From positions 1-64,000 of the forward strand of contig JAGTXK010000091.1 of NCBI GenBank assembly GCA_019096195.1: a stretch of 64,000 nucleotides of DNA, given 5' to 3'. Shown here piece after piece: positions 1 to 56,649 of this stretch (position 1 is the first letter of the stretch; every line of letters begins with the position of its first letter). The notes below the pieces were generated by a model. That model saw only the letters and a program-made list of their open reading frames with translations. It ran no database searches and was not told the origin of the DNA. The position numbers and the translations under genes are program-made. The stretch comes from Boletus sp. NGJ. Lineage: Eukaryota; Basidiomycota; Agaricomycetes; Boletales; Boletaceae.

Positions 1-540
1 ATAGAACGCCAAGGGTCAGTGCTTTATTTCATACACCTATATGTTAGGGTAAGGGTTAGGGGTTATTGGGGAATAACATGTTTAGTGAGAAATGACCAAA
101 CATGCGGACAGTTTTTTGAGCCACTGTAGCATAGGACCAGGCATCAAGCAGCAAACTTGGTTATGTGATACCGGCAATCCCTCTAGGCAGACATATTCCT
201 TGATCCATGTAATTAGCTGAAATAATTATGATTATAATATATCCATACATGGGGCATAGCTGAGGTGACTGAATCACAGAAGTGCTGTGGGAGAAATCAA
301 AGTTCTGGTATCCATGGACTTGGTTCTGACTAGCTGAGATGAGACACTACAGTGTCCGACAAACCACATGGGTGTACATATGCATTACTGATTTGTGTTT
401 TGGCTCATAGTGTAAAGTGAGTTGTATCTGTGTTTTTCATGCAGCTGTACTGTCTTCCATCATCCTAAGAATGCCTAAGAATGCCTACAAATGAAAGATT
501 AACCCTGGAAGAGTTACACATGCCACTTGGATAATGAAAA
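1..540. other. Gene-free left edge
   Basis: No convincing coding stretch, RNA gene or transposon end is visible here. The only structure is a short telomere-like run near the left edge. The stretch probably includes upstream sequence of the KDZ transposase relic that starts to be recognisable soon after position 540. Confidence 0.5.
44..62 (+). repeat. Short telomere-like repeat
   Basis: Three hexamers in a row read TTAGGG, TAAGGG, TTAGGG, followed by one extra G. TTAGGG is the usual telomere repeat of filamentous fungi. The run is too short to be a chromosome end and lies inside the sequence, so it is an interstitial telomere-like site or chance. Confidence 0.4.
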
Positions 541-3500
541 ATACCACAAGGGGGCCTAAGATGACTCTTGTCAGATTGAATGCTATCAAGGATCCACCTT
601 CCACAACACCATCCCAATTTGTCCAGTCCACCCCAAGCAAGCCTGGACCATCTGACTCTCAGTTTACCTTCAGTGCCAGCATGTATGTTCTTTGTCACAT
701 TTAAACTTGCTATTCTGATGATATCCAGTGAAGGCCAGATGCTGCCGATGGAGAAGTAGATAACATTCAGCCAATCTGATTGCCCCCTAAAAATGTATCC
801 ATCCTTGATTTTGGTGAATGCACTAGTCCACACAAATGTCTAGACTTCAAATGATTATCTCTGGGAATGGGTCACTCACAAGGAAGAATTTCTGCAAGCT
901 GTGTTGGACATGGAAGCTCCCACCGATCCCAAGAATGTTGTATATGCTGGTGGGATGGTATCTATTGGTGTTCTGACTATTTCAGTCAGCCACTGTTATG
1001 CACTGGGTGCTGTAGGAACTGAGATAAGAGGCATCCTTTTCATTGCATTCAGCAGTGGACCAGGGCATTCTTTGACAATTCATCTCTGATCTTGGTGAGC
1101 TTTGTAAAGCATTCCTAAGCTTTGGATGATTTTGAAACACATTGCGACAGACCAGCTTTGAGCTCCATCTTGGTTATGATGGTGGGCCATATCTGAGCAG
1201 TGGTCAGAAACGTCCACATACACCTGATGACCCAGCATCCATGGATGATGATGCCTAGGAAGACATCGACCAAGATGACATTCCACCACATCTTTGTCTG
1301 CCAAGTGGGTCAAATTATCTGACGGTGGTTGATGTGACTGGGATTCATTTCATGACCATCAACTACTGCACATGCTCTGATTCTGACCTAGAATATCTTC
1401 AACTTTTGTAGTGCAAGCTTTATCCTGTGACACTACAAATTCCAAGGACTGCATTTACCTTCACCCTGCTAGATGACTTCATCCAAGATAATTTGGAGTG
1501 TGAAACATTTAGAATGAACTATTACAGCAAGCTCTGAAGGATCACTTCCAACATCTTCCCTCACATTGTGCTGGTATGTTGCTGACCCACTTTCTGCATG
1601 TCAACTGCTCACACAGGTCCAAAATTGTTACTGAGAGTTGCTCAGGGTCAGCCAGACAGTGGAGACTGCTAAAGCTTCTCAAGTGGAATGGCTTTGGTCA
1701 CCATTCCTAGCAGCCACTGAAGGGAGATCTTGCCTCTTTTTGCCCTGCATGTCCTCAACTGGGGATGAATGTGCATGTTTCCATCAATGAGCTTTCCAAG
1801 TTGGTGATGATATTCTTTGACTACTGCACTTTCTGATCAAAATCCCAACAGCTGGAAGTATGGCCAAACTCTTATCATGGATGGAAACTTCAAGGCTGAA
1901 CATATGTGGGAGAGATGGCCTGATGACCAAATCTGGCTGATGGATGGCCTTGGCTTCATGGTAACTCGGCCAAACTATCATGAGTATCTGAAGAAGATGC
2001 ACCACCCCCTGGAGGTAATCATGCAATGAAAGAACACCATTCCTACCATCACTGATGTCCATCAACAGAGGTTGAGTTGCAACAATTACTGAGCTATGAA
2101 CCAGGTGAATGCCAGCTGAGGCAAATTGGATTCCACCAGGATCGGTGGTTCAGCATGTGCTTGGCATGGCTGTTTCATACCACACTTGGTGGTCAGTTTT
2201 AGCAGGGGGAGAGGTAAGCAATATGTAGGAAGAATATGAATATGCCAATCACTTAGATCCATGCAGGCAGGTGAACATGGACTACTCTTTTATTAATGCC
2301 CTTACCCACAACATGGACAATATTTCACACATCATAAGTTTCTATGACATCAATTGTTCTTATATGAAGAAGCTCCGAGCTCAGCTAAGTGATAACAGGT
2401 TCATTTGGCTACCACCACATCTGGCCATTGTATCTGGCATCAGAATGTGGCACATGCATGGACATCAATCTTCATGTTTTGCTTGGTACTCCCCCCTGTT
2501 CATTTCTAGGGCAGGATAGGTTGATGGTGAGATTATTAAGACCTTATGGTCTACTTTGAACATTGTGTCCAGGTCTGCCTGAGGAATGACCTCCCCCCAT
2601 TGGCAAGAGCTTTTTGACTTCCAAATGAATGATTCCAATTTTATCAAAATGATCAGAATGTGTATTTTTCCCTGTGGTTGTTTACCCATTTATTCTGCCT
2701 ATACTCATTGATACCAGCTGGAACTCTGGCAAGGAAGCTCAAGGCTGTGTGGAAATCATTTGCATCAGCAAGGGCAACATTCCATGCCCTCAATGGGGGG
2801 GTTGCCCACATTCAAAGACAGCAGTGGCTGGTCAAGAAGCAGAGGGCTTTGGAGAGATGCATCAGCAATCCATCGGCAATGGATATATTTGAGGTGCAGC
2901 TACACAAAGGTGAGTTGGGACATGGTGCATATTGTCACAGAGCTCAGACCATTGCTTATGCATTGCTGAGTACAGCACCAACCATATAGGTCATTGAGAG
3001 GGAAATGCTTGAGAGTATAACTCATGCACTGGCAGCCCACTGTGGAGCTGCAACATGGCTTGCAAATGGTTTGAAATTTGAGGAGGCACAGATATCACTC
3101 TGCAGAGATATGAAACAGATGGCTTTCAAGTCCACCGAACTTCAACAGCTGGCTCTTGCCCACTGAGCTGATCAGCTGGCTGCTAAAATTTCATGCTTCC
3201 TTGCTGAAGCTTCCACATCCCTTCAGTTGGAGGATGATGATGATTTGGAATCAGACATATCTGATGGAGACAGTAATATCGGAGACGAAGATATGGTCAA
3301 TGATCTCAGAGCTAAACAATCTGATCAGGTAAAGCTGCCATTGCCATCTAACCTGGGTCATGACAAGTGCATGGCAATTGGTGCTCACCACCTGATTAAA
3401 CAGAAGCTCAAACTTTGTGCAAGCCAAGCAAATGATGCCTTATATGAAATCCGGCTCGCATTAGCAGATAAGGCAGTGTTGTTCCACACCAACATTTAGC

Positions 3501-4110
3501 ATGCTTCAAGCCACATGAAGACCACCAGAGCCTGGGGAAAGGTGAATGCCATGGACACCTTACTTGCTCGGCAAGTTGCCATATATCAGAAATGCCAATC
3601 TGCCATGATAAATCTTTTGGCCGAGGATGACATGTTGGCCAGATATCAGATGTTAAAGAATGAGGATCTTAAGGTTAGCACTGTGGTCACCAAGCCCAAC
3701 TCCCACAATCATCACACCAACAACCTGGCCTGGTTCTAGTTGATGGATATACTGGAGGACACTGAGATGAATGACTGGATGTCTGAATGTAAGTTCCACA
3801 TTCTCATGAGACCTTTCTGCTGACATTATATATATCTACAGTCTACCAGATACATTGGTTGTGTGCAAAAGCCACAATGGATCAGTGGGGAGAGGAGGCA
3901 GAGCTACTGATGGCCAAGTTCAAATGGACCGTTGGTTACTTTGACCACAAATCAAGGGAATGGAAAGAGCATGCAGCACACAGTTAGCAGAATGACAGCC
4001 AAGGAAAAACATGCTATGCTGTCTGCCAGCAGGCCATCTATACTCGACTTTGGGAGCAGTGTCGGATGGAATGGAAAAGCTACTGAGAGACACACTCTAT
4101 GGAGACGTTG
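540..4110 (+). pseudogene. KDZ transposase relic with CxC2-type cysteine cluster
   Basis: This is a decayed DNA-transposon transposase of the Kyakuja-Dileera-Zisupton (KDZ) superfamily. From N to C terminus I recognise a cysteine/histidine cluster at about 980-1070 ending in HPFHCIQQW, the block TAFTFTLLDDF at about 1450, then MDGNFKAEH near 1880 (first catalytic Asp region), ISFYDINCSY near 2340 (second Asp region), WHMHGHQSSCF near 2450, AMDIFEVQL near 2880, and a C-terminal stretch LPSNLGHDKC...NNLAWF up to about 3740, then a tail to about 4100. Introns with good ends are still visible at 1574-1616, 2214-2266 and 3789-3841; removing them restores the family reading locally. The gene has many in-frame stops and frame changes and cannot make a full protein. 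I could not find terminal inverted repeats. Confidence 0.82.
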
Positions 4111-4226
4111 GATGGTAGCCTCTTTTTATAAGTAGACGTCATATCATAACAAAAATACACAGCCTGTCCAAAACTATCATGCATTGTTGATAAATCCAGG
4201 ATATTCCGAGGTCTACATGGGCAGAA

Positions 4227-4233
4227 TATATAA
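4227..4233 (+). promoter_or_regulatory. TATA box of the 4.3 kb gene
   Basis: TATATAA lies about 60 bp before the ATG at 4292 and is followed by a pyrimidine-rich stretch, a layout common for fungal core promoters. It supports 4292 as the start of a gene separate from the KDZ transposase. Confidence 0.45.
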
Positions 4234-4291
4234 CCACAGTCTCTCCACATCCTTCATTTCATCATATTTCCCCATTCCTCATCATTCTGCT

Positions 4292-5050
4292 ATGGAAACA
4301 TTTTCTGACAACACACCTGTCACCACTCTCCACATGATGCTGTGGTATCAGAAGTGCTGGATTGAAGTGGCCATGGCACATCTTGCACAACTTCCTGCTG
4401 AGCAGTGGCTGGCAGCTTGGCATGATAACATGATCATGGAATCGGTATGTTTTCCCCATTTCACATCACAAATCGGCCCTTTGACATTATTGATTTGCAG
4501 AACATCTTGGACTTTTACTTAGGCCTATATGCGCCCATGCACACTGTACCTCTGCTGACTTCATCCTGTGCCCGATTCATCAAAGTTGGCACTAGTCCAG
4601 AGGATCTCCATCAGGACATCATCCGTGCCACCTCCAAAATTGACCTCAATGGCATAAAGTGAATCCCAGAGCTCTTGCCAGGTCGGTGGCCAAGCGCAGA
4701 TGCTCCCACCTTTGGATTTGAGCATCCATGGTGGATGGCTGACATTCCAGACTATCACCTCAAGGCATCTCAATTCTTCATTTCCAATTCCTTTGCAAGG
4801 GTGGAAACCTTCTTCCAGGTATGTGGATCACTTGGATCATGGTCGTTAGCTAATTCATCACAAGGACTATTGGCCAATGGATGAGTCTCCATTGGACAAT
4901 GCTCATAACACTTGGCTGGATGCCCTGGTGACTGGAATTTTGACTGACCTTCAGCAAAATATTGCTGAGCTTGTAAAGGCAGAGGCAACAATAATAGAGT
5001 CTCAGATAGATATGGTTCAGTTGTGGAAGCTGTTTCAGAAGCATCGATGA
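4292..5050 (+). pseudogene. Unidentified three-exon gene between KDZ transposase and TET/JBP relic
   Basis: I do not recognise the family. Three exons (4292-4444, 4501-4818, 4865-5050) joined across two short GT...AG introns (56 and 46 bp) keep one frame of about 218 residues. Exon 1 begins METFSDNTPV; exon 2 holds the Trp/Pro-rich stretch FGFEHPWWMADIPDY; exon 3 ends with a charged, probably helical segment (ILTDLQQNIAELVKAEATII) and the stop after LFQKHR. A single TGA lies in frame at 4660-4662, so the gene is either a young pseudogene or misses a small splice event. It is far better kept than its two neighbours. It may be a second gene of the KDZ element or a captured host gene. Confidence 0.5.
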
Positions 5051-5218
5051 TGCATGCTTTGCCTGTGATCCAGACTCCTTGTCTACAGTTAAGGTTGTAA
5101 TTTGTAATTCAAGCTTTACCTGGCAATATCTTGGCCAAGTTCAGCAAATACTGTATGACTAACCGAGTGCAGACCGAGGCAACAAATCTATGTCCAACTT
5201 TGACTGCCTACCTATTCT

Positions 5219-6478
5219 TTACCATCCTCCCCAGATCTCATATTTCATGTAATTACAGTGGAAAACATCCATGTATTCATCTATCATGTATTCATGGACA
5301 TTGTCCTACATGTAGTATGAGAGCATCTTCCACTCCCCTGCAACTTGACTGACTTCATGCTCGAGCATTTGCCCTGAGAATGTGATCACTGTCCCTGGGT
5401 TATATTGAAGCTGATGCTTGATGATGGGGATTAAAAAATTTAACCCGGCATAGTCACTAAATGAGACGAGAAGATCCAACCACTGGAGCCTGCCATTTAT
5501 GTCAGTTTGAAATGAGCTAGCTCAGTTGGCCATGACAGAAATAATATTATAAACTGATGACCACAAAGGAAGTACATCCTTCATGTCAAGGTCCTCCTGT
5601 GTGGCCACCCAGTTGCCAAGCTGAACCAATACCTCCTGACCCGAATCATACCTTTCAGGATGCAGGATGGCAACCAATGCTGCCAAAAAAGCTGAATGCT
5701 CTTTCATGGCCAACAGCCATTCACGTGCTCCGCTATCGGTTTTGGTTGCCTTGAGTAGTGCTGAGACCTCAGGTGGCCCATTTTCCCCCTGTTGACCAAT
5801 GTTAGGTTAATGAAAAGGAGGAAAAGCCAAATAAACACCGACATTTTGGCCCTATTGAAACCAAGTAGAAGATAGGTTGATTGTCCCTTGCAGCTTTGCC
5901 ATAGGGTGGAAGTTTGCCTCTGAGATGTGCCAGTGAGTATTCCGGGTCATGCTGCAGGAAAGAGGCCCAGACAGCAGCAGTAGCTATTCCCAGATGTATC
6001 GCTTGATTGATCTATTGGTGAGATGGTTGTAGAATCCAGGGACATACTTATTTGATTAGGGTGGCTGATCACACTGGGCAAGTACCAAAGTAAGATGTAG
6101 CCTGAACAATCACTGCAGGTTTGGTGAGCATGGTATATTCCTGATCATTGGTGTCTGATGGCACTGTTGAATGTCCCCTTCTTTTGATTCGTTCACCAAG
6201 CTGAATGATGTTGACATTGCTAATCATCACTGGGTGGAAATTAGCAGGGCATTATCGAATGTGAGAGCCATACCCTTATTTTGATATGCTTTTGAAATGA
6301 TGCTGACCATCCTGTTTGCCTCGCAAACTGTCTACATGGGAATGCACAGAGGTGGAATTTTTGGCTGACTGTTGTCATCAGTAGATGGCAGGGAATTCTG
6401 AAATCTAGAAATCATATAGGCAGCCAATTTATCAGTATAGGAGATAGCTCAATTGTCTGGAATTTCAGGGGGGCTCAT
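5219..6478 (-). pseudogene. TET/JBP-like 2-oxoglutarate/Fe(II) dioxygenase relic
   Basis: Read on the minus strand from an ATG at 6478 (MSPPEIPD), this matches my recollection of the large fungal TET/JBP family, whose members oxidise 5-methylcytosine or thymine in DNA. Blocks in order are IIQLGERIKRRGHSTVPSDT and YTMLTKPAVIV (about 6220-6120), WYLPSVISHPNQ (about 6085), NFHPMAKLQGTINLSSTWFQ (about 5890), REWLLAMKEHSAFLAALVAI (5720-5660), LPLWSSVYNIISVMAN (near 5540), WLDLLVSF (near 5470) and the core strand NPGTVITFSGQMLEHEVS (5410-5345), ending near NVHEYM. The distal metal-binding His (LEHEV) remains. The usual HxD reads QTD and the usual Arg after GD/GE is Trp, so it would be inactive. Several stops and frame changes are present. 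It converges on the KDZ transposase and the middle gene, the arrangement expected of a KDZ-TET/JBP unit. Confidence 0.75.
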
Positions 6479-6526
6479 GGTGAAAGGAAGATCTGAGAGG
6501 ATCAGGAAAAGCAGGAATCAGGAAAA

Positions 6527-6532
6527 TATATA
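6527..6532 (-). promoter_or_regulatory. TATA box of the TET/JBP-like relic
   Basis: TATATA on the minus strand sits about 50 bp upstream of the ATG at 6478 with a C/T-rich leader between them. It fits a core promoter for the dioxygenase gene and supports the chosen start. Confidence 0.4.
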
Positions 6533-6649
6533 GAGTGGTAGGTTCCCATGGAAACTCATATTTCAAGCATTAGTCTGGATTTGGAGACTCATTCACAGCC
6601 ACCAAGAAGAGTAGATTTTGGACAGAACAATGCATTAGCCATAGCATCT

Positions 6650-7526
6650 CTCCATATTCAAGGTGCATCACATGCACCTTGCTTAGTCTCTTCTGTATCC
6701 ATTGCACTAGGTCTCACTCGCCCTGCTCAATCCTATCATATGTATCAAGGTAAGTCACGCTTACACTGCTTGATCCTGTTACATAGATTGGCAAGTGGTC
6801 ACCCCCACCCTGCTCAGTCCTGCTATATCCATTGTGGCAAGCCACTCTCACACTGCTTGGTCTGATCAAATGCATTAAGGCAAGTCACACCCACGATTCT
6901 CAGTCATGCCATATGCATCAAGGTCAGTCACCCCCATATTGCTTGGTCCCATCATATACATCAGCACTTGGTCACCTCCACCCTGCTTGGTCCTACCATA
7001 CACATCGAGGTCTGTCATGCTCACACTGCATGGTGTGGTTGTAATCCATCAATGTCAGCCACCTCCACCCTGCTCGATGTGGTCATATCCATCGAGGCCA
7101 GTCACCCTCACACTGCTTAGTATAGTTGTATCCATCGGTACTTAGTCACCCCCACCCTGCTCAGTCCTGTCATACCCATCAAGGTTGGCCATGCTCATAC
7201 TGGTCAGTGTGGTTGTATACATCAGTACTTGGTCACCTCCACCCTGCTTGGTGTGGTCATATCCATTGAGGTCAGCCACCTCCACCCTGCTTAGTGTGGT
7301 TATATGTATTCATCAAGGTCAGTCACCATCGCCCTGCCTGATGTGGTTGTATACATTGAGGACAGTCACCCTCACCCTGCTCGGTGTGGTCATATACATT
7401 GGTACTTGGTAATCTCTGCCCTGCTCGGTCTCGTTATATCCATTGAGATCAGCAACACTCACACCATTCAGTGTGGTTATATATGTCAGCACTTGATTGC
7501 CTCTGCCCCGCTTGGTCCCACCATAT
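6650..7526. repeat. 43-bp minisatellite, left part
   Basis: About twenty tandem units of roughly 43 bp run through this stretch. Each has a form like CATC-(a/g)AGGTCAGTCAC-CCTCACACTGCT-(c/t)GGTGTGGTTGTAT, and units with AAGGTCAGTCAC often alternate with units carrying GCACTTGGTCACC. Copies differ by about 10-25 percent. The period is not a multiple of three, so the open frames across it are not protein-coding. The array continues beyond the solo LTR inserted at 7532. Confidence 0.85.
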
Positions 7527-7531
7527 CCATC

Positions 7532-8491
7532 TGTTATGGTTATGGAAGGGAGTACATCTTTTTCTCTTCCTTCACCCCCTCTGGGACTCTGGGACAACCT
7601 CTCTTCTTTGACACCTCTGACTACCCAGGATTCCCCCACAACACCCACACAAGCATCGCCCCATCTGGAATCCCCCTTCTAGGTGATGCACCACTATGGC
7701 TGTGACACAGCCCATTCTATTTCACTATACATGCATTTCACCTTTGATCTGATCATAGACATTGCCTCCTTGGCTGTGTTCTCTCGCACACAGCCCAAGT
7801 ATTCCACTTTCTTCATTTAACTGATGATATGATCTCTTATGGTAATATTCCAGTATTACCATATATGATACAAAGCCTGCCCTGAATAGGAAAGGCCTAT
7901 ATATATGGGCATATTCCCTTCATGTAAATCCAACCTAGATCTACACAACTTCCTGTATAATCTACCCCACTCCTGGTTCCACTTCACCTCAGAAGCCTGT
8001 GCCTACTCTGGAGGTGACCACCACAGTGCTTATAATCATCCTTCTCATCACTTCACACTTGTGTGACCTTGTTACTGTTTGGTCACATACCTAGCCAATG
8101 GCAACTCCAATGCAGACAGAGGTCTGCCTGTCTAAGCCCAGGGCTCTGCCACTGGCACTTGTCTAAGCCCAGGACTCCGCCACTGGTAGCACCATAAATC
8201 CAGGACTCTGCCACTGGTATCAGCATAGCCCTGGGACTCTGTCACCAGCCCCTGTACACAATTGGTCTGTGCCTCTATCAAGACTGCGCCACCCTCATCA
8301 AAGTCTGAGACTCCACCATCAGTCATAGAGTAGGCTCCAACCCCAAGGGAGGCTCTACATGAAAGCTAGCTGTTGATCCCCAGTCCAAGGAATATTGGGC
8401 CTCGGGAGGTATTTTCCCCTCAAGTCCAGCTAGTCCAGTAATCAAACAGGTTGATTACTTGGGAACATGTCACTTGTTACCCAGCATAACA
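7532..8491 (+). mobile_element. Solo LTR, family J, inside the minisatellite
   Basis: A 960-bp LTR starting TGTTATGG and ending CATAACA, flanked on both sides by CCATC (7527-7531 and 8492-8496), a perfect 5-bp target-site duplication. No internal region is left, so it is a solo LTR. A TATATATA motif lies at about 7900. A second copy of the same family sits at 14062-15042. The internal element and superfamily are not visible. Confidence 0.88.
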
Positions 8492-8496
8492 CCATC

Positions 8497-8860
8497 AAGG
8501 TTGGTCATGCTCACACTACTCAGTGTGGTCATTTACATTGGTACTTGGTAATCTCTGCCCTGCTCGGTATCATCGTATCTATTGAGGTCAGCGAACACTC
8601 ACACCACTTGGTGTGGTTGTATGCATTGGCACTTGGTCACCTCTGCCCTACTTAGTCCCACTGTATATGTCGAGGCCAGTCATCCATATACTGCTCAGTG
8701 TGGTCATATACATCAGCCCTTGGTCACTCCCAACCTGCCCGTCTTGTCATATACATTGAGGTCAGCCATGCTCACACTACTCAGTCCTGTCATATATACC
8801 AGCACTTGGTCACCTCCACCCTGGTCAGTCCCATTGTATGCATTGACCTCAATCTTACTC
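8497..8860. repeat. 43-bp minisatellite, right part
   Basis: Continuation of the same tandem array after the solo LTR, about eight units, with the same alternating unit types. The array fades out near 8850. Confidence 0.8.
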
Positions 8861-9070
8861 TCTCCACCAGGGGCTGTTTAATATCTATCAATCTTTCATC
8901 TAGTTACCCTTTCCAGGCCCTTCCGTATCCTATGTATATGCATGTTAGGCAGGCCCGGCTGTGTCTTACACATCTCATATATCTCAGACCCATTATAGTA
9001 TCATCCATACATGTCAGGTGTTTCGCAAGCAGGCTCACCATATGCTATGGGCATATTTGACTGCATCATG
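8861..9070. other. Unassigned spacer
   Basis: Sequence between the minisatellite and the copia-type LTR. I recognise no gene or repeat in it. Confidence 0.4.
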
Positions 9071-14061: not shown

Positions 14062-15042
14062 TGTTATGGTTACCAAAGGGGGTACATCTTTTCCACTTCC
14101 TTCACCTCCTGTAGGACTATGGGATGACCTATTCTTCGACTCAGACCAGGGATTCCCCCTGCAACACCAACTCAGGCATTGCCCCATCCGGAACCTCCTT
14201 TCTAGGAAGTTATCCGTAACTCCCTTTTCAGGAATCTACCCGTTTGGTATGGACACCACCTCCCCTATTTCATCTGATATATGTTTTCTTCCTTCTTGAC
14301 CCAATTATAGACATTGCCTCCTTGGCTGTGCTCTCTCGTGCATAGCCTAGTATTCCTACCTTCCCATTTTGACTCATGCCTTGATCCGTTTATAGTAATC
14401 TTTCGTCTGCGACTAACGATTACTATATTCGTTATGAAGCCTGCCCTAGATGGGTAAGGCCTATAAATAGGGACACGGGCCCTTCATGTAACTCTAACCT
14501 AGATCTACACTCCTTCCCGTGTAATCTACCTGCTTCTCCTGCTAAAGGTTCCACTTCACCTCAGAAGCCTTCTTCCACATTCTGGAGGTGATCGCCCTTG
14601 CGCTTGTGATCATCGTTCTTATCACTTCGCACTTGTGCGCCGTCGTTGCCGTTACAGACTCCTAAAGCTTCGGCAACTCCAACGACCAACAGAGGTTGGT
14701 CGTCGTCGGTCAGGACTCCACCACTGATCCAGCAAGCCCAGGACTCCACCACCGGCATTAGGCCATATAAGCCCAGGGAACTAGCTGATGGAAGGCAACT
14801 GTCCCTGGCCTTCGCATCCGGTCTGCCCATCCTCCACGAAGGATCGCGCCACCGTGGTAAATCCAAGACTCCGCCATTGGTCGTAGAGGTAACGAGAGGA
14901 CTCTACGTAAAGCTAGCAGTTGGTCCCCAGTCAGAGGAAACCTTGGGCCTCTGGAGGTAGATATTTCCCTCAAGTCCTGCTAGTCCTATAATCCGACAGG
15001 GGGATTATACGGGAACGTGTCACATTGTTACCTGGCGTAACA
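14062..15042 (+). mobile_element. Solo LTR, family J, inside element A
   Basis: A 981-bp LTR starting TGTTATGG and ending CGTAACA, bracketed by CTTCC at 14057-14061 and 15043-15047. It is the same family as the solo LTR at 7532-8491 but keeps more CpG sites. It inserted between the reverse transcriptase and RNase H parts of element A and is therefore younger than A. Confidence 0.88.
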
Positions 15043-18903: not shown

Positions 18904-19381
18904 TGTTATGAACCTTTCGGCACAAACCACAAGGCTAGGACTACTTGCAGGTTACACAGATCCTGGCTCAATGAATGAGGTGGGGAGTCACATCCATACT
19001 ATTCCCAACCCTATGGTGACCAGAGTGGTCAAAGCTAATGAGTTGTTGGAGGAAGAATACAAGTGGATTAGACTGGGGTTACCAGTCATCAAAGTGCTAC
19101 TTTATATACATGAGAGAGATGCACATGGACCAAGCAGTGTGTGTGATAATTTACTAAGTATAGTAAGACAGAGATTAAAAGGGCTGTGTGAGAAGAGCGG
19201 AAATTAAAGAGTCGTGGGTCACATGAGGAGTGACGTCATATGATGTCATAGGTTCTAGACCTATCATGTGATGTATTCCCATGGTCATGTGCACAGTCAC
19301 ATGACTTATGAAGAAAGGAGTTGATGAAAATGAAAAGTAAGTGTTCGCATGAAAAGTTTGAAATTTTCCTATATTATAACA
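18904..19381 (-). mobile_element. D-family LTR at left inversion breakpoint
   Basis: A 478-bp LTR in minus orientation. It appears base-for-base identical to the 5' LTR of element D at 34099-34576, which faces it. Its left flank AACTT (18899-18903) matches the complement of 34094-34098, and its right flank CACAT (19382-19386) is the complement of ATGTG at 40459-40463. So it was once a solo LTR in copia E, and its right junction was exchanged in an inversion. Confidence 0.85.
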
Positions 19382-19389
19382 CACATGGC

Positions 19390-33005: not shown

Positions 33006-34098
33006 CGAATATTATCACTTCCACTCAAGTATAATTGTAGTCCCATGGCTTTAACGAACTTCCAGTGTTGATCCCTTACAAGTGGTTTTATAAGTATGTC
33101 TGCTACCATGTCTCTGGTCGAAACATAGCAAACAACTACTTCTCCCTTTCCAACAAGGTCATCTCTGACAAAATGGTATTTCTGTTGAATGTGCTTGATT
33201 GATGCTCAGAACTGTGGATCACAGGATAGGATTATGGCAGCTTGATTATTGCAAAATAGTTCAGTTGGGCCCTTCTGTGTATGCCCAATTTCATCAAAGA
33301 AGGTCCAGAGCCATACAAGGTGCTGTCCGGCATTGCTAAGTCCAATGTATTCTAATTCAGTAGTTGAGAGTGCAACCATGCTTTGTTGTTTGCTGGGCCA
33401 TGAGATGGCTCCACGATTGCTCATGAAAAGGAAACTGGAAGTGGATTGGGAGTTGTCAGAATCTTGAGACCATCCAGCATCAGTGTATCCATGGAAGTCT
33501 AGGTCCATTGAGATCTCAGTTCCATTGAAGCTGAGTTCCATGTCCTTTGTGGCTTGGATGTACCTGAGTGCTTGCTTTGCTGCTTCTCATTGAACTAGTT
33601 TGAGTTTTGCACTGAAGCGACTAAGTGTCCCAACTGTGTATGCAATATCTGGATGTGTTTTGAGCATGAGATATATCAAGGACCCAATGATGGTGAGATA
33701 AGAAATGTGACATCCTTCAATCACCATTTCTGGGATGCTACAGTCATCCTCTGGGTTGGTTGCAGAGAGATGGGAATTGTGTGCCATTGGAGTCCATACA
33801 GGTTTACAATTTGACATACTGGTACAATCCAGGACTGTCTAGGAATACTGTGATTTGGACAGAGAGATAGTTGGAAGTTTACAATTGCACTTGATTTCAA
33901 TTCCCAAGATGTACTTGGCTTCTCCAAGATTCTGCATTTTGAAGCTAGAGGAAAGTTCCTTTTTGACGGAATCCATGAACTTCTGAGAACTGGCAGCTAA
34001 GAGTAGGTCATTGATGTAGATGACCAGGAAGCAAACCTGTCCATCCTTCCAGTAGACATAGAGGCATGTCTCTGTATTCAAACAAGTGAAGCCAAGTT
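33006..34098 (-). pseudogene. Copia element E, end of reverse transcriptase and RNase H
   Basis: Minus-strand end of a Ty1/copia pol: reverse transcriptase catalytic region FLVIYINDLLLAASSQKFMD near 34000, NLGEAKYILGIEIKCNCKLP near 33910, YLTIIGSLIYLMLKTHPDIA near 33690, RNase H blocks DLDFHGYTDAGWSQDSDNSQ near 33480 and MVALSTTELEYIGLSNAG near 33370, and the tail KPLVRDQHWKFVKAMGLQL near 33060. It is in the inverted block; its earlier parts lie at 18702-18903 and 9956-10391. Broken. Confidence 0.85.
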
Positions 34099-34576
34099 TG
34101 TTATAATATAGGAAAATTTCAAACTTTTCATGCGAACACTTACTTTTCATTTTCATCAACTCCTTTCTTCATAAGTCATGTGACTGTGCACATGACCATG
34201 GGAATACATCACATGATAGGTCTAGAACCTATGACATCATATGACGTCACTCCTCATGTGACCCACGACTCTTTAATTTCCGCTCTTCTCACACAGCCCT
34301 TTTAATCTCTGTCTTACTATACTTAGTAAATTATCACACACACTGCTTGGTCCATGTGCATCTCTCTCATGTATATAAAGTAGCACTTTGATGACTGGTA
34401 ACCCCAGTCTAATCCACTTGTATTCTTCCTCCAACAACTCATTAGCTTTGACCACTCTGGTCACCATAGGGTTGGGAATAGTATGGATGTGACTCCCCAC
34501 CTCATTCATTGAGCCAGGATCTGTGTAACCTGCAAGTAGTCCTAGCCTTGTGGTTTGTGCCGAAAGGTTCATAACA
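34099..34576 (+). repeat. 5' LTR of element D
   Basis: A 478-bp LTR beginning TGTTATAATAT and ending CATAACA. It contains GTATATAAAG (TATA, about 34370) and a CRE-like TGACGTCA at 34242-34249. It looks identical to the inverted copy at 18904-19381, yet differs at many sites from its own partner at 39981. Confidence 0.88.
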
Positions 34577-35187
34577 CTTGGATTAGACTATATACACAAT
34601 GCTCAGACTCCAGAGCCAAGGAGATTATACGCATGCCCAGCGTTTAAGGGACATCTGAAGTATTCACCACTTGACGGTGACAAGAAAAGCACTTGCTGAA
34701 ACGCTTGCATATACGCTCGTCTGATATCATAAATACGGATAAAGTTGCTGCCAGGCATAGTGCACTAGCCCCACTTCTTAGGTGGTTGCCAATCTAAGCA
34801 TACGCTGGTTCTACGATAGTGAACCCAGGTTCTTGTGATTACCTGTGACGTCACGAAGTTACGATACGGAGATTTATCTCGACTTTCTCCCATGTAACAC
34901 CTGCTAGTAGTAAAGCAGTTATACTCTGGTCCCCCTATCACTGTTGCCCACCATTTTCAACGACCTCTACTTCGACTCCTATGAAGGTGTAGGGACCCCA
35001 GAACCCGATTGCAAGATATTGGGTAGTAAGGTCCTGAAAGAAGACCAACCTAGGAAAAGGAAAACTTACATAAGAAACCCCGACAAAGTCAGACCTCTCC
35101 ACCCCTCCTCCGCATTCGCCCTATATCGCATTGCCTACTTTCGCTCTTACCTCCGCCCAACCTCCCTACTAAAACCCATCAACAAGT
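34577..35187 (+). other. Leader of element D
   Basis: Untranslated leader between LTR and gag. It begins CTTGGATTAGAC, the probable primer-binding region, and holds a conserved block at about 34700-34940 (GATAAAGTTGCTGCCAGGCA, then a GTGCACTAGCCCC core) that recurs in F, D2, H and G. Confidence 0.6.
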
Positions 35188-36310
35188 ATGTCTTGTCTAG
35201 ACATTGACGAGCTCGTTCAAAAACTCACCGACCTCATGCAGGAATGTGACAAGGATAACATCACAAAAAAGATTGCCGACCCTGGAAAATGGAACGGCAC
35301 AAGGTCCACCTTCTGCCCATGGTGGATAAAACTTCGTCTCTGGGTTGACGTGCAGACCTGGAAAAACAATAAAATCATGGACATCGCAGTCCTCTCGCGC
35401 CTCGAGGAAAAGGCAGAAAGCTTTGCTCAGCTTATAATAGAGCACTATCTCGATGAGGAAGCAACCATCGAGACAGACGCAAATGGGGTCATGCAACTGG
35501 CAAAAGGAGCCAACGCGTGGCCCACATGGAACAGGCTACAGGACCAAATAAAGATGCACTTTTGTATCGACACATTAGTGCATGAGTCTCTAAGGAAACT
35601 CGAGACCTTAAAACAAAACAGTCACCCTATAGACCTATTCCTACAAAAGTTTGAAATCCTAAGAAAAGAGTCATACATAGACAATCATCATGCAGAGGTT
35701 CTTCTCAAAAAAGCTGTAGACTTCAAAATCTATGAGAGCTCTCATCTAAACAGTTCAGCTCAGAACTTTGACTATGAGAATCTAGTCATAAACTACAGAG
35801 TAATTGGAAGGGCGTTCAAATAAATGGCAAACAAATGTGGACCACCCATCCGAACTCAACCTCCTCGATCATCGTATACCGCCCCCAATATACAGCAGTG
35901 GGCACTCAATCGGGTCATGGCGCACCCATGGAAATAGGAGTCCAGCAGGCTGGACTGTCGAAAGACATAAGGACTTGTTTCCACTGTGGTAAACCTGGCC
36001 ACATAAAGCCAAACTGCCCCACAAACCCATTTAAATGAACTGGTCAACCACCAATGCAAAGGCAAATCTGGGATTGGAACCAAGGCTCGTATGTCGAGCA
36101 AACACAGGGAGAAAATGAGTATCACTCATTTTTTAATGAACCCCAATCCAGACAATACACATTCCAACCTCTTCCACAACCTCCCATAGCTACAGCAGCA
36201 CCAAGTATAGCAGCAAGGACATATGTTTTTGATGAGGCAGAAGTGTACTATAGAGACAAATTTGAGGTGGAGGCTAAAGCCAGAGCTGTGCAGGCTTTAA
36301 ATGGATAGCG
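35188..36310 (+). pseudogene. Element D gag region
   Basis: Gag with N-terminal helix (DIDELVQKLTDLMQECDKDN), capsid-like region through LDLFLQKFEILRKESYI-type sequence near 35640, and a canonical zinc knuckle CFHCGKPGHIKPNC at about 35978-36020, then a Pro/Gln-rich tail. Broken once or twice but close to complete. Confidence 0.85.
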
Positions 36311-36569
36311 CCAATGAGTAAAGAGGGAACTCAGCGGCACGAACATTCTTCTTTTTCTCTTATGACATGTACTAGTAGCGATTTCCCGATTTCAGATCTA
36401 TCTTCTGTCTTATGTAAATTAACAATACAATCCGCAAGGGCGTCTCAATTGAGCGTGGCACCGGATACAAGTGTGCTTAATTCCCTTGTCAAACAACAAA
36501 AAATATCTCATATCTATAAACCCATGAAAGTTACATTGAACCAAGCATCTACGTTATCCTATGGTGGAG

Positions 36570-36950
36570 AATTCTCCCTTGAAACCATAGTATCGTGCAA
36601 TGTCAATGGACAGTGGTCGCGCTACTGTTTCCAATCCCTCTTGGATTCCGGAGCGTCGCATACCTTCATAGATCAGGACTATGTCAAATGTCATGGAATT
36701 CCTTTCTACACTATTGACAACCCCATAAAGATACATAACACTGACGGTTCAGAAGGAGCTATCGGACTGATCTGTTATGCGGTAACCCTGATGGTGGAAA
36801 TTAAAGGACATTACGAAGTCATAGATGCTTACATATCGAAACTAGGAACCCATCGAATGATCATTGGTTACGACTGGCTTTACCGCCACAACCCTGACAT
36901 TGATTGGGTAAAACAAACGATTACTTTCCCTCGTTGCACTTCATACTGTA
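36570..36950 (+). pseudogene. Element D aspartic protease region
   Basis: Active-site block FQSLLDSGASHTFIDQDYV near 36630 and C-terminal block HRMIIGYDWLYRHNPDIDW near 36855, typical for a Ty3 protease, followed by TYHEFLDVFSEKES, the conserved lead-in to reverse transcriptase. Confidence 0.85.
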
Positions 36951-37089
36951 GAATTATGGGACTAGGACCCACTTCTTCTTACGAACCAGTTCACCTTCGT
37001 ACTATAGAAGAAGGACTCAAAGAGAAAGTTCCACTAACTTATCACGAATTTCTAGATGTCTTTTCGGAGAAAGAATCCCAAAGAATGCC

Positions 37090-37880
37090 CTTATGAAAAC
37101 ACTGGGATCACGCAATCGATCTCAAAGAAGACTTCATTCCGAAGAAAGGACATGTCATTCCCCTTTTGGACATTGAAATGGAAGAAGTCAGAACGTTTAT
37201 CAAAAAGGAAGTCAAAAAAGGTTATGTTAAACCCTCTAAATCTCCACAGACATCCCCCGTCTTCTTCATTCTCAAGAAAGACGGTAAAAAGCAAATGGTA
37301 ATGGATTACTGCTATTTAAATGAAGGAACCATAAAAAATTCCTATCCACTCCCTTTGATTCTGCAACTAATTGATAGACTCAAGAATGTGGATCTATTTA
37401 CAGCAATGGACCTTCAATGGGGATACAACAACGTTCATATCAAAGAAGGTGATGAATGGAAAGCAGCCTTTGTCACCCCCATCAGAGCATATGAACCAAT
37501 GGTTATGTATTTTGGACTAACGAACTCTCCCCCTACATTCCAAACCATGATGAATGATATCTTTAACGACATGTATGCTGTAGTCGTTATTTACATCGAC
37601 GATGTCATGATATTTACATTGGGTAAAACAAAAGAACAGCACAAAGAAGTTGTAAAGGAAGTTCTACACCGCTTACGTGAGAATGACCTTTACGTAAAAC
37701 CAAAAAAGTGTACCTTCTCGGCTGATAAAGTGGACTTTTTGGGTATGGTAGTATCTAAAGAGGGTAGAGATGCAGTCGAAAAAAGTAGCTGGGGTCATGG
37801 ATTGGCCGGTACCTACAAGACTAAAACAACTCCAAGGCTTCCTCGGATTGTGTAATTATTACAGACGATTCATAGAAGGC
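37090..37880 (+). pseudogene. Element D reverse transcriptase region
   Basis: WDHAIDLKEDFIPKKG near 37110, FFILKKDGKKQMVMDYCYLN near 37265, FTAMDLQWGYNNVHIKEGDE near 37400, and the catalytic block VVIYIDDVMIFTLGKTKEQ near 37590, ending in LYVKPKKCTFSADKVDFLGM. Ty3 type. Broken near its end. Confidence 0.88.
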
Positions 37881-37899
37881 TTCACACAAATCGCTTGAC

Positions 37900-38400
37900 C
37901 CTTGAACAATCTTACCAAGAAAGACGTTCCATTCAAATGGGGTCCAGAACAACAAGAAGCTTTCTCAAACCTAAAAAGAAAATTTACGGAAGCACCACTT
38001 CTCACATACCCAAACTGCGATCAAGAAATGCGCATGGAAACCAATGCTTCAGACATTGCCACAGGAGCTGTACTCTCCACATTATGTAATGATGGTAACT
38101 GGCAACCAGTTGTCTTTATTTCCCACTCTTTTGATAGCGCAGAGTGCAACTACCCTATTTACGACAAAGAATTACTTGCAGTAATTTGCGCCCTGGAAGA
38201 ATGGCACCATTATCTTATAGGTTGCGAAAGATTCAAAATCTGGACCGATCACAAAAATCTTGAATATTGGAAGAAGCCTCAAACTCTTAGCGGTAGACAA
38301 GCACGATGGCATGTGCTTCTCCAAGAATTCAATTATCTATTTATATACAAACCAGGTTCCTCAAATGGAAGAGCGGACACTCTTTCCAGAAGACCAGATC
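37900..38400 (+). pseudogene. Element D RNase H region
   Basis: METNASDIATGAVLSTLCND near 38035, YPIYDKELLAVICALEEWHH near 38155, WTDHKNLEYWKKPQTLSGRQ near 38245 and the exit block YKPGSSNGRADTLSRRPD near 38350. Confidence 0.85.
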
Positions 38401-38559
38401 ACAGTGACGCAGTGCAAGACCACAATCAAAATGTTACCGTTCTCCCACCATCTATATTTATAAATCATGTTTCCTTATCTTCAGACCTTATAACAAAAAT
38501 CCAAAAAGAATCCAAAAAATATGATGTAGATGCCATAAACAATTTCCTCTTCTATTCAG

Positions 38560-39535
38560 AACTTAGTTTATTCAAAAATGAAAAAGATCAAATATTTGTC
38601 CCTGAACCTTTACGTACAGAAATCATTACTTTATGCCATGATTCACCAATAGCAGGACATGGTGGTCATTCCAAAACTATTCACACACTCTCCGTTATTT
38701 CTTGTAGCCAGGAGTCACAAAGGACGTAAAAAATCATGTAGATCACTGCCAAGTGTGCACCTTCACTAAGGGAAAGCAAAATGCACTGGCAGGAAAAGTT
38801 TCCCTTTACCTGCGGCAAAAAGACCCTGGGAAGATTTATCAGTAGACTTTATAACTGGTTTACCTCCATCACAATCATTTACCGCTATTTGCATTGTCAT
38901 AGATAAATTTTCAAAAGAAGTCATCTTTATACCTACCTATGATATCTGTTCCTTGAAGGACCTCGCAGTTCTATTTAGAGACCATGTTTGGTCAACACAC
39001 GGACTCCCCTCAACCCTCATATCAGACTGAGGACCCCAATTCATGTCTGTGTTTACCCAAGAGCTTTGTAAGCTCCTTGGAATTAAACAAAAGATTTCCA
39101 CCGCATATCATCCACAAACGGATGGACAAACAGAGCATGTTAATCGAGATTTCAAGCAGTATCTCCACGCATATGCTGGAAAGAAACAACACGATTGGGT
39201 AGAATGGTTGAAACTTGCCCAATTCTCTCACAATAACACTGTAACAATGGCAACTGGCAAGATACCCTTTAAAGTTACTAGAAACTACATACCGCATATG
39301 GGTTTCAAAGGGCATCTTACCAGTTTTGCACACGAGATTGGATGTAACCATAAGAATATAGAAGAAGCGCTGGAAGCTACACGAGAGAGGATGATCACCT
39401 CTTCCGATAAAAAACGATCAACAGCCCCAGAATATTCTATTGGTCAGCAAGTCTGGCTCTCCACAGATAAATTTAAACTTCCATATATGGCAAAAAAGCT
39501 TACTCAAAAATGGATTGGTCCCTACATTATCACAT
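38560..39535 (+). pseudogene. Element D integrase region
   Basis: Zinc-binding part around 38635-38760 (HDSPIAGHGGHSKTIH, then HCQVC), core domain from about 38840 (DFITGLPPSQSFTAICIVID, then STAYHPQTDGQTEHVNRDFK near 39090) and the C-terminal TGKIPFKVTRNYIPHMGF region. Broken in the middle. Confidence 0.85.
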
Positions 39536-39589
39536 GAATCATTCCTAATGCCATAACGCTTAAACTCCCAAACTCTGTTCACATTCATC

Positions 39590-39860
39590 CAACTGTGAAC
39601 ATCTCTCACGTCAAACCATACAAAGAAACATTGCTGGGACAACCTAAATCTCGACCTGACGCTATAGAGATTGATGAAGAGGAAGAAGAGCAATTCGAAG
39701 TTGATTTCATTGCCGCTTCCAGGATGAAGAAAGGCAAACTTGAATATCTGGTTCATTGGAAAGGTTACAACGATACCGACCGTACCTGGGAATCTGAAGA
39801 AATTCATATCACTACACCAAACGCAGTTAAAGATTTCCATCGTCTTAACCCATCCGCACT
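39590..39860 (+). pseudogene. Element D chromodomain
   Basis: The linker FHPTVNISHVKPY-type block leads into FIAASRMKKGKLEYLVHWKG near 39705 and RTWESEEIHITTPNAVKDFH, a well-kept chromodomain. Confidence 0.85.
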
Positions 39861-39967
39861 ACGCAAGCTTCGTGGTTTATCCATATCGGCATTCGCTTCT
39901 CTATTTACTCCTTATGAAAACTTCACCGAAAATGAAAAAACAACAACTCGCCTGGAATTTGAGTCCT

Positions 39968-39980
39968 AAAGAGGGGGTAG
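39968..39980 (+). other. Polypurine tract of element D
   Basis: AAAGAGGGGGTAG ends at the first base of the 3' LTR. The same tract, reversed, precedes the 3' LTR of D2. Confidence 0.75.
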
Positions 39981-40458
39981 TGTTATAATATAGGAAAATT
40001 TCAAACTTTTCATGTGAACACTTACTTTTCATTTTCATCAACTCCTTTCTTCATAAGTCACATGACTGTGCACGTGACCATGGGAATACATCACATGATA
40101 GGTCTAGAACCTATGACATCATATGACGTCACTCCTCATGTGACCCACGACTCTTTAATTTCTGCTCTTCTCACACAGCCCATTTAATCTCCGTCTTACT
40201 ATATGTAATAATTTATCACATGCACTGCTTGGTCCATGTGCATCTCCTATATGTATATAAAGTAGCATTTTGACGACTGGATTCCCCAGTCTAATCCACT
40301 TGTATTCTTCCTCCGACAACTCATTAGCTTTGGCCACTCTGGTCATCGTAGGGTTGGGAATAGTACAGACGTGACTCCCCACCTCATTCGTTGAGCCAGG
40401 ATCTGTATAACCTGTGAGTAGTCCTAGCCTTGTGGTTTGTGCTGAAAGGTTCATAACA
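39981..40458 (+). repeat. 3' LTR of element D
   Basis: A 478-bp LTR with CRE-like TGACGTCA at 40124-40131, followed by ATGTG (40459-40463), the duplication whose other copy is at 19382-19386 in reverse. Confidence 0.88.
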
Positions 40459-42095: not shown

Positions 42096-42720
42096 GGCAA
42101 TTTGCTTATTCATACTTATTTGATTAAAATAAGTCCAATAAGCATAAATTCCTAACAAGTAGAATAAGTTCACTTTTTGTTTTGCTTATTTTATTATTTA
42201 TCTTACACTTATTTGACTTATTTTTCAACTCAACTGTATTGACAATAAGTGTACTAAATGTGTACTAAAAGTATAGCAATGTGTAGCAAACAACATGTAG
42301 TAAAAAGTGAACAAAAGTGTAGCAAAGTGTAGTGAAAAAAGTGTACTAAAAAGTGTAGCAAAGTGTAGCAAAAGTGTAATCAAAGTGGAGTGAAATATGT
42401 AGCAAAAAGTGTAGCCAAAATGTTGCAAAGTGTTGCAAAAGTGTACAAAGTGTACTACTCCCTCCCAACACAGATGGCATACTTTTGGTATACATTGGCT
42501 ACACTGCTTACTTGTAGCAAATGTGTAATAACAAATGTGGGAAACCAAAGTGTAGCAAAAGTGTAGCATTTGTAGCACTTTTTTGATTAGCAAATGTGTA
42601 ATGACAAGTGTGGGAAAGCAGAGTGTAGCCAAGGTGTAGTACTTGTGGCACATTTTTTATTAGAAAATGTGTAATAACAAGTGTGGGAAATAAAAGTATA
42701 GCAAAGGTGTAACAATAATG
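42096..42720. repeat. Left terminal inverted repeat with GTGTAGCAAA-like words
   Basis: After the tip and an AAATAAG-rich part, from about 42245 to 42450 the sequence is made of spaced copies of AAAGTGTAGC/AAAGTGTACT. Its reverse complement is found at about 46940-47240. A second, inner block (42500-42720, with GTGTAATAACAA and GTGTGGGAAA words) recurs reversed at about 46195-46290. Confidence 0.75.
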
Positions 42721-44829: not shown

Positions 44830-46030
44830 TTAATAGATGGATAAATGTGAAAGGGAGGGATCTTGGTATGAAGGGCCAGCAGCCAATGGTCCAGGATCCT
44901 CAAGGTGATGGGCGAGCAGAGAGTGACCTTGATGTGATGTATCTGCAATGAACTGGTTGCCAGATACACCCATTTGCTGCATCACACATGCATATTCCAT
45001 TTGCTTAGTCAATAACTCAATGTGACAGGCAACAGCACACTCCTCAGTTTCCTTCAACTTGAGGTCCAGCATTTTGAGCTTGTGCTCACAGTGAAATTCT
45101 ACTTCAGCATTCACCCACTTAGCACTGAGCTCCTGCTTTTGGATCTCAAGTTCTTGTTTCCATAGTAAATAGTTGAGCTGCAATATGTGTGAAGGTGTCA
45201 CCCCTCTAAGACCTCACTTGCCCTATCTAACTCCTCAAGTTTGGCAGCATATGGATTTTGGAACCAGAAGTGGTTTTCTGCTTGGTGGAGGATGAGATGC
45301 TGTCTGATAAACTAGTCTGCACGTTTGACATTGATCCAACAGAACTTGGTGGATGTGAATACAGGCTCTGAGTCTGTCTTAGGCTGGTAAATGCACTATG
45401 CCCCTCTCATAAGGGTGTCTTGCTTCTTGATGAAAACAAAGTGCTAGAAGAACTGGATGCTGCAGTCCGCTGCCATATTTTACAATGATATATTCATCAG
45501 TCTGAAAAAGAGCAATAAAAAAAAAGCCTACCTTGGGAGCACTGGCAGGGAGAGGAGGCTACTCAAACATTGGCTCAACATTTATGCCAGGATTGTTGTC
45601 ATCATAGAAAAGGGGGTCATTAATAGACTGCATGGCAAGAGCATGTTCCTTGTCATCCTTCACTGTGATCTCTCCTTCATCATACTGGGCATTGGCATCC
45701 TCTTTTTCAGGTATGGTAGCAAAAGCACTGGCTTTGGGTGTGACAATGCTAAGAAGACTCTTGGCATGATTGACATTTGGGTCAGAAGATGTGAGTTCAC
45801 TATCAAAAGAAGGGATTCCTTTCCAGATAGCATTGAGCTCCTTGTAGTAAGAGAATGTACAGAGGACATCCTTTAAATAATTTAGCATTAAGTATTAGTG
45901 ACGATGTTAACAAGATGAGGTAACTTACCAAGAAGGTTTTGCGGTGGGCTATCCATGTTGTCGTCATTTCAAGGCATAATGCTGCTACCAGTACTTTTGA
46001 ACCATGAGTGCTGCTCACAATATGTATGGC
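44830..46030 (-). pseudogene. Harbinger partner gene relic (Myb/SANT-like)
   Basis: Minus-strand gene converging on the transposase. One part (45888-45559) reads YYKELNAIWKGIPSFDSELT and VNHAKSLLSIVTP. I recognise this as the region that follows the Myb/SANT-like domain in the fungal Harbinger companion protein. A second part (45201-44830) is a charged helical stretch (KWVNAEVEFHCEHKLKMLDL). The companion protein is known in this superfamily to bind DNA and assist the transposase. An intron between the two parts is likely. No Myb Trp repeat is seen on this strand, so it is N-terminally incomplete. Confidence 0.5.
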
Positions 46031-46179: not shown

Positions 46180-47398
46180 CTGCAATTTTGGGTAATTGGA
46201 CTATACTTTTGCTACACTTTGCTTGCCACACTTGTTACTACACATTTGGTAATCAAAAAGTGCCACAATTAGTGGTGCTCAATCTGACTATTATCTGACT
46301 ATTATTCTGCTATGAATCCACTGTCATTGCAATCTAGCATGTGTCTCTCCAGCAGGAAGTAGCCATCTGAGTTGGAAAAATATGCCTGCTCTTCATTCCT
46401 CACTTTGACACTCTGCAAGGCTTCAGACCCTAATGAATAACCCCATAGCCATGGTTGCCAGCAGCAGAGGAAATAAACAGGCTGTAGGCTTGAAGAGAGC
46501 CTCTATCCCAACCCCTTCTTAGGTGTCAACATTGTGACATGTGGTGGTCTACTACTTTAGACTACTGCCCAGAAAAGACATTGTGCAAGGGGTGGCCAGC
46601 CCCCAGCCATACAACTGTCTGCACAAGAGCCCACTGCATCAGCTTCATTGCCTGGATCACTTCTTACACTGCGGACTGTCATATTTTATTTCATGATCAC
46701 TCATCATCCACCTCTACTACCAGGCCATCACCAGAAGACAAGCCATCTGGCAAGAACAAGAAGGATGTTGCAGCTGTTATTGCAAAACATATCTTTGAAA
46801 ATGATTCTGATCATGCCACCTCATATGGGTATGACCCTATGAGATATGGGACCTCTGTCATCAACCATTTGGCAGTGTAAGTCATTTATGATTTTACTTG
46901 AAATCAAGGCTCATATTTGTATGATTCAGGCTCAAATCCAAATACAGTATGTAGGGGGAGGAGGTACTACACTTTGTGCACTTTGTGCTACACTTTTGCT
47001 ACACTTTGTAAATACACTTTTGCAACACTTTGCAACACTTTGGCTACACTTTTTTTCTATGTATTTCACTACACTTTGATTACACTTTTGCTACACTTTA
47101 CTACCCTTTTGAATGCTTTTAGTACATTGTTTTACTATACTTTGCTACACTTTTGTTCACTTTTTAGTACACTTTGTTTGCTACACTTTGCTACGCTTTT
47201 TGTACACTTTTAGTACACATTTAGTGTACACTTAATGTGAATACAGTTGAGTTGAAAACAAGTCAAATAAGTGTAAAATAAAGACAAAATGAGAAATTAA
47301 GTGGGTTTGGTTTCAGCTTATTTTACTTGTTGGAATGCATGCTTATCTTATCTTATTTTGACCAAATAAGTATAAATAAGGCTGAATAATCAAACTGG
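46180..47398. repeat. Right terminal inverted repeat region, interrupted
   Basis: The outer part (about 46940-47398) is the reverse complement of the left repeat, rich in GCTACACTTTG words. The inner part (46195-46290) matches the inner left block. Between them, 46300-46930, lies a fragment of a Myb/SANT-like gene that has no counterpart in the left arm. Confidence 0.65.
46539..46880 (+). pseudogene. Second Myb/SANT-like fragment, plus strand
   Basis: The end of this open stretch, KNKKDVAAVIAKHIFENDSD and YDPMRYGTSVINHLA, resembles the N-terminal conserved part of the same fungal Harbinger companion family. It ends at a good splice donor (GTAAGT at about 46877) but the next exon is absent, because the terminal repeat begins. 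It faces the opposite way to the fragment at 44830-46030. Confidence 0.45.
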
Positions 47399-54106: not shown

Positions 54107-54571
54107 TGTTATGAATCCTTTCGGAAAACACACCACAAGGCTCGGAAGAGTCCTGGCTGAACGAATCAGGAGGGGAGTCTTAGTCCTGGATATTCCCAAC
54201 CCTACGACGGCCTGAAGACCGAAGCTAATGGATTGTTGGAGGAAGATACAAGTGGATTAGACTGGGGTACCAGTCGTCAAAGTGCTAGTTTATATACATG
54301 AGGAGAAGTGTGCACGGACCATGCTGTGCGTGTGATAAATTACTACGTATGGTAAGACGGAGATTAAGAGGGCTGTGTGAGAAGAGCGGAAATTAAAAGG
54401 TCGTGGATCACATGAGGTATGATGTCATATGACGTCATAGGTTCTAGACCTATCATGTGATGTGTTCCCACGGTCACGTGCACAGTCACGTGACTTATGA
54501 AGAAGAAGTTTGAAGAAAATGAAGAAGTAAGTGATCGTTTGAAAAGTTTGAAAATTTCCCATATTATTACA
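54107..54571 (-). repeat. 3' LTR of element D2
   Basis: A 465-bp LTR. It carries the CRE-like palindrome TGACGTCA at 54430-54437 and two CACGTG boxes at 54475-54480 and 54487-54492, plus a TATATA motif near 54290. The reversed polypurine tract lies just to its right. Confidence 0.88.
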
Positions 54572-54649
54572 CTACCCCCTCTTTAAGACTCGAATTCCAG
54601 GCGAGTCGTTGTTTTTTCGTTTTCGGTGAAATTTTCATAAGGCGAGAAT

Positions 54650-54965
54650 AAAGAAGCGAATGCTGATAACGATAAGACCACGAAGCTTGCGTGGTGCGGA
54701 AGGGTTAAGACGATGGAAATCTTGTACTGCATCCGGTGCAGTTACGTGAATGTCTTCAGATTCCCAAGTTCGATCGGTTTCGTCGTAACCTTTCCAATGA
54801 ACCAAATATTCTATTTTGCCTTTCTTCAACCTGGAAGCGGCGATATAATCAACTTCGAATTGCTCTTCTCCTTCTTCGTCAATTTCTATAGCGTCTGGTC
54901 GAGATTTAGGCTGTCCAGGCAGCGTATCTCTATATGGTTTGACGCGAGAAATGTTCACAGTTGGA
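54650..54965 (-). pseudogene. Element D2 chromodomain region
   Basis: Minus-strand block NISRVKPYRDTLPGQPKSRP, then DYIAASRLKKGKIEYLVHWK and GYDETDRTWESEDIHVTAPD, a complete-looking chromodomain, ending with LNPSAPRKLRG. Confidence 0.88.
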
Positions 54966-55079
54966 TGGATGTGAACCGAATTAGGTAGTTTGAGCGTTAC
55001 GGCGTTAGGAAGTACCCGAGTGATGACGTAGGGGCCAATCCATTTTTGTGTGAGTTTTTTCGCCGTATAAGGAAGTTTT

Positions 55080-56000: not shown

Positions 56001-56119
56001 GTAGAAAAGGAAATTGTTTATAGCGTCGACGTTATGTTTTTTGGATTCTTTTTGTATTTTTGTCATAAGATCAGAAGAAAGAGAAACGTGGTTTATAAAT
56101 ATGGAAGGAGGGAGAACGG

Positions 56120-56640: not shown

Positions 56641-56649
56641 GTAAGATCG

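Follow-up and report, generated by a model that had tools for sequence, protein, structure and literature searches.

Three genes packed within about 1002-6478 of the window, the whole stretch of 64,000 nucleotides that was analysed, very probably represent a very old, inactivated TET-carrying KDZ DNA transposon in a mushroom-forming basidiomycete, most likely one of the Kyakuja lineage. The relic of a transposase gene on the plus strand is followed by a probable third gene and, tail to tail with the transposase, by the relic of a TET/JBP dioxygenase gene on the minus strand (Table 1). Both relics are inactivated, and the region shows a specific loss of CpG. An earlier reading of the letters, referred to here as the original prediction, had described this arrangement for 540-6478, of which the part from 1002 onward could be assigned to features; the observation was confirmed, its interpretation as an element with its own enzyme for altering methylated cytosine was partly supported. 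Fungal KDZ elements carrying a TET/JBP gene, to which the prediction had referred, are documented in the available text of Kojima 2025 (PMC12730594), where TET-carrying Kyakuja elements are reported from Agaricales, Auriculariales, Boletales, Polyporales and Russulales. Because of these reports from five mushroom orders, the locus is most likely an ancient representative of a known kind.

Table 1. Features of the KDZ/TET locus and the two Ty3/gypsy copies in the window
Feature	Position	Strand or orientation	Remarks
CxC2-KDZ transposase relic, whole	~1002-3790	+	gene scattered across several frames
Cys/His-bearing stretch ahead of CxC2	1002..1133	+	read-through frame; joined to transposase by eye only
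CxC2 cysteine-cluster domain, decayed	1307..1552	+	PF18803, E=2.4e-21, 76.4 bits, cut-off 27
KDZ core, N-terminal half, in-frame stops	1868..2194	+	PF18758, E=9.3e-07, profile 4-91 of 217
KDZ core, C-terminal half, in-frame stops	2265..2639	+	PF18758, E=3.5e-21, profile 98-217 of 217
Probable transposase C-terminal tail	2660..3790	+	single frame, 377 codons with 4 stops
Probable third gene, modelled by eye	4292..5050	+	exons 4292-4444, 4501-4818, 4865-5050; 218 codons
TET/JBP dioxygenase catalytic core, CcTet-like	5300..5782	-	two in-frame stops; Tet_JBP and CcTet matches
Possible N-terminal part of dioxygenase gene	5783..6478	-	broken frames; position and frames only
Ty3/gypsy copy	34099-40458	inverted relative to 54107-60519	internal CpG o/e 0.65; LTR differences 34/478
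Ty3/gypsy copy	54107-60519	inverted relative to 34099-40458	internal CpG o/e 1.24; LTR differences 13/463

Transposase relic

A fossil CxC2-type KDZ transposase had been predicted on the plus strand, and Pfam profile searches recovered it. Stops in the decayed KDZ frames were replaced by X for read-through queries. The query 1115-1573 matched the CxC2 profile, while 1811-2212 and 2103-2660 matched the N-terminal and the C-terminal half of the KDZ profile, respectively; the uninterrupted piece 2229-2519 alone gave a KDZ match with E=1.2e-11. The CxC cysteine cluster N-terminal to the KDZ core is thus present and of the type CxC2. In Pleurotus ostreatus, CxC2 precedes KDZ in all intact KDZ transposons, according to the available text of PMC7641404. 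Since the Cys/His-bearing stretch ahead of the cluster had no Pfam match when queried singly, it may be counted to the transposase only tentatively. The probable C-terminal tail lies in a frame other than that of the KDZ core directly upstream; it was the top of six frames by a leave-one-out codon score and had no match in Pfam. KDZ pieces had no confirmed relative among viral contigs in single-sequence queries, which reach close relatives only. One piece gave 13 pattern matches in genome contigs, of which none was confirmed, and no match in phages. In the Pfam searches as a whole, sub-threshold matches to the unrelated families TcdA_TcdB_pore (0.13), P23-45_gp39_N (0.068) and NeqB_N (0.2) were rejected as chance.

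Dioxygenase relic

The Tet_JBP profile search, on which the original prediction of a convergent TET/JBP-like relic had been staked, returned a match. The query 5200-5806(-) reached E=6.2e-09 and 35.7 bits, narrowly above the curated cut-off of 34.9, as a one-frame read-through across one stop; the two open pieces of the core queried singly stayed under the cut-off (E 0.009 and 0.14). The same query matched CcTet of Coprinopsis cinerea (PDB 8jkk, 7vpn) with E=4.9e-14 over chain residues 236-395, the first piece by itself reaching an E of only 1.3 against the PDB. In the CcTet alignment the HxD...H iron-binding triad is incomplete: the first His is replaced by Gln, the Asp and the distal His are retained. 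With this metal-binding His lost and two stops inside the core, the dioxygenase gene is dead and yields no active enzyme. The positions of CcTet Gly331 and Asp337 are occupied by Gly and Asp in the relic, as in the AG type. In the available text of Kojima 2025 (PMC12730594), whose CcTet residue numbering is used here, the AG-type enzymes of Kyakuja are related to CcTet and carry Gly or Ser at 331 and Asp at 337.

The dioxygenase gene may extend upstream of the core, and its start at 6478 is a guess. Region 5783..6478 (-) had no significant match in Pfam, nor had the piece containing ERIKRRGHSTVP and one further N-terminal piece in the PDB, where they gave 2 and 7 chance matches, respectively, CcTet not being among the former. 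The four peptide blocks quoted in the original prediction are all present in minus-strand ORFs (6069-6251, 5947-6144, 5522-5806 and 5306-5521), but ERIKRRGHSTVP and WYLPSVI lacked statistical support: neither block had a match in Pfam, the one database with which the WYLPSVI piece was compared. The assignment of these blocks to the N-terminal part of a TET gene comes from the original prediction and is tentative. No relative of a TET piece was confirmed among viral contigs with a single-sequence query, suited to close relatives only.

The probable gene between the relics

A spliced gene had also been predicted at the locus, and coding signal was found in the three exons modelled between the transposase and the dioxygenase. 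The model has an ATG start, a terminal stop and one internal stop; its introns of 56 and 46 bases are both GT..AG and of phase 0. It is probably a compact three-exon gene. By a codon score trained on the KDZ and TET blocks, the modelled frame ranked first of six in every exon, with a narrow margin for exon 2 (0.076 versus 0.068). In leave-one-out trials the true frame came out on top in all five training blocks, though the margin was 0.005 or less for three. The exons had been picked for their open frames, for which the following control makes no correction. Of random placements of the same geometry (20000), drawn from window positions above 8000, 69 had at most one stop, 11 reached the score and none combined both.

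The gene had no match in Pfam up to E 10, nor in NCBIfam and the PDB, and for the piece 4429-4662 no relative was confirmed among viral contigs (single-sequence query, close relatives only). Five plasmid records matching exon 2 were discarded as chance, all having E values of 4-6. A single-sequence fold of exon 2 had a mean pLDDT of 38 and was unusable. The lack of a relative in these five collections, the modelling by eye, the shared strand and the closeness to the transposase, whose last counted block (3790) lies just ~500 bases away, would also suit a frame that is open by chance, or exons that belong to the transposase gene further downstream; against this somewhat unlikely alternative stand the complete model from ATG to stop with its two phase-0 GT..AG introns, the best frame in all three exons and the empty class among the random placements. 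If the stretch is a separate gene, it could tentatively be seen as an unnamed, regular component of TET-carrying Kyakuja elements, a small partner of the dioxygenase or the transposase, although we would doubt this rather than assume it. Its protein could, for instance, aim demethylation at the element. The available text of Kojima 2025 (PMC12730594) makes no mention of a third Kyakuja gene, and this gene is the sole part of the locus that could extend published knowledge.

Decay of the locus

Stops were counted in nine blocks of the three genes, with the third gene represented by exon 2 and the N-terminal part of the TET relic set aside; these blocks contain 19 stops in 1150 codons: 11 TGA, 8 TAG and no TAA. 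Decay of methyl-CpG can make TGA but not TAG; other mutations have to account for the 8 TAG. The strong CpG decay that had been predicted was observed in all three genes, with CpG o/e values of 0.11 (KDZ), 0.22 (third gene) and 0.21 (TET), and it comes with a surplus of CpA and TpG; TpA/ApT was 0.46, 0.33 and 0.53, respectively. Methylation would account for this decay. RIP of the CpA type was ruled out as its cause because TpA/ApT is low while CpA and TpG are high. The TCG hypermutation of rusts was ruled out as well, since in all three gene regions TCG is retained better than any other NCG context; as cited in the available text of Kojima 2025 (PMC12730594), this process occurs in rusts, and hypermutation was not detected in Agaricomycotina. 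Neighbouring repeats are equally CpG-poor (minisatellite o/e 0.24, solo LTR 0.10), so the shared decay does not mark the three genes as one unit.

Two Ty3/gypsy copies with unequal CpG loss and LTR divergence serve as a small internal clock for the erasure of CpG from the element. They belong to one family, with 84 % identity over 6297 aligned sites, and the copy at 54107-60519 has frames for reverse transcriptase, RNase H, integrase and a chromodomain. Among its 401 CpG, 133 are kept in the other copy and 205 appear there as TG or CA; in the control, 185 of 283 GpC are kept and 64 appear as AC or GT. CpG loss tracks LTR divergence in this pair. By this clock the KDZ copy would be older than both gypsy copies, given similar rates. 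A gypsy LTR at 18904-19389 is 99.6 % identical, in inverted orientation, to the LTR at 34091-34576, despite the 34 differences in 478 positions within the LTR pair of the copy at 34099-40458; this may reflect exchange or duplication in recent times.

The following course of events is proposed. In the living element, the transposase with its CxC2 zinc cluster and KDZ core would have moved the DNA by cut and paste. Silencing by methylation would have been lifted by the AG-type dioxygenase through oxidation of 5-methylcytosine and perhaps of N6-methyladenine as well, and the gene between the two would have made a third small protein. The host would have methylated the copy, deamination of methyl-CpG would over time have removed nearly all CpG, and deamination together with ordinary mutations would have disrupted the genes by stops and frame breaks. 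A counter-silencing function of this particular element is plausible; for the class, a 5mC-oxidising enzyme aboard such elements is already the published reading (PMC12730594, available text).

Element ends, lineage and surroundings

Two Kyakuja families of Laccaria have 7-bp target site duplications and CA..TG ends without terminal inverted repeats (TIRs), according to the available text of PMC12730594. A scan for the ends of the present element yielded 2 candidates that combine a 7-bp duplication with CA..TG ends; the control mean was 1.0, and 139 of 500 control placements reached 2. Of 64 inverted pairs in 1-9000, the longest 25 included none resembling a TIR; this region may not contain both ends. 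A second copy of the KDZ/TET locus was not found within the window, the protein listing for this search omitting matches wholly below window position 8000. Because the ends are at chance level and the window holds no second copy, that the three genes moved together as one unit is something we infer.

Since the locus fits the descriptions given in the available texts of Kojima 2025 (PMC12730594) and of the work on Pleurotus ostreatus (PMC7641404), it was filed as a probable dead TET-carrying Kyakuja copy. A TET-carrying element of another lineage, e.g., a Zisupton with an AG-type TET gene, would be compatible with a TET-carrying KDZ element and is known from Auriculariales, yet it is unlikely, Kyakuja being present in all five orders and the sole TET-carrying lineage in three of them (PMC12730594, available text). 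It is quite improbable that a KDZ fossil merely came to lie beside a TET relic of separate origin, derived from some other element or from a host gene: the many repeats of the window, the equally CpG-poor flanks, the chance-level ends and the missing second copy would allow it, but the tail-to-tail packing around a probable coding gene and the documented TET-carrying KDZ elements of mushrooms (PMC12730594, available text) argue against it.

The window is dense in repeats, as seen from gypsy-type domains and self-matches. Directly right of the TET relic lies a minisatellite array of ~87-bp units (6650-7531 and 8492-about 8850), interrupted by a solo LTR at 7532-8491. This LTR and a second one at 14062-15042 belong to one family (TGTTATGG...TAACA) with ~67 % identity, and they are flanked by the 5-bp duplications CCATC and CTTCC, respectively. 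AGTGTAGCAAA-type repeats at 42105-42454 and 47000-47380 form an inverted pair of 79.5 % identity that encloses ~5.3 kb and perhaps represents the ends of another DNA transposon; the ORF 45448-45876 inside the pair had no Pfam match at E 0.01.

Comparison with known systems

The KDZ class of transposons was reportedly described by Iyer et al. in PNAS in 2014, with an abstract that is said to mention additional proteins, among them a divergent HMG domain. The elements KDZ1-3 of Cryptococcus share with the present locus the KDZ core and a predicted zinc-chelating CxC cluster; they differ in the cluster type, CxC1 instead of CxC2, and have TIRs of 139-241 bp, and the available text (PMC12810828) describes no TET gene for them, whereas a TET relic is present here. 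Compared with CcTet (PDB 8jkk, 7vpn, 7w5p), the relic aligns over the core 236-395 and keeps the residues at the positions of Asp328, Gly331 and Asp337, but has Gln at the position of His326 and two stops across the core. The closest likeness is to the TET-carrying Kyakuja elements of Agaricomycetes, in which a KDZ transposase gene likewise lies beside a CcTet-like AG-type TET/JBP gene (PMC12730594, available text); the present locus differs in being dead and in having a probable third gene between transposase and dioxygenase, of which that text makes no mention. It adds a further copy, and a very old one, to a transposon type with a presumed anti-silencing enzyme.
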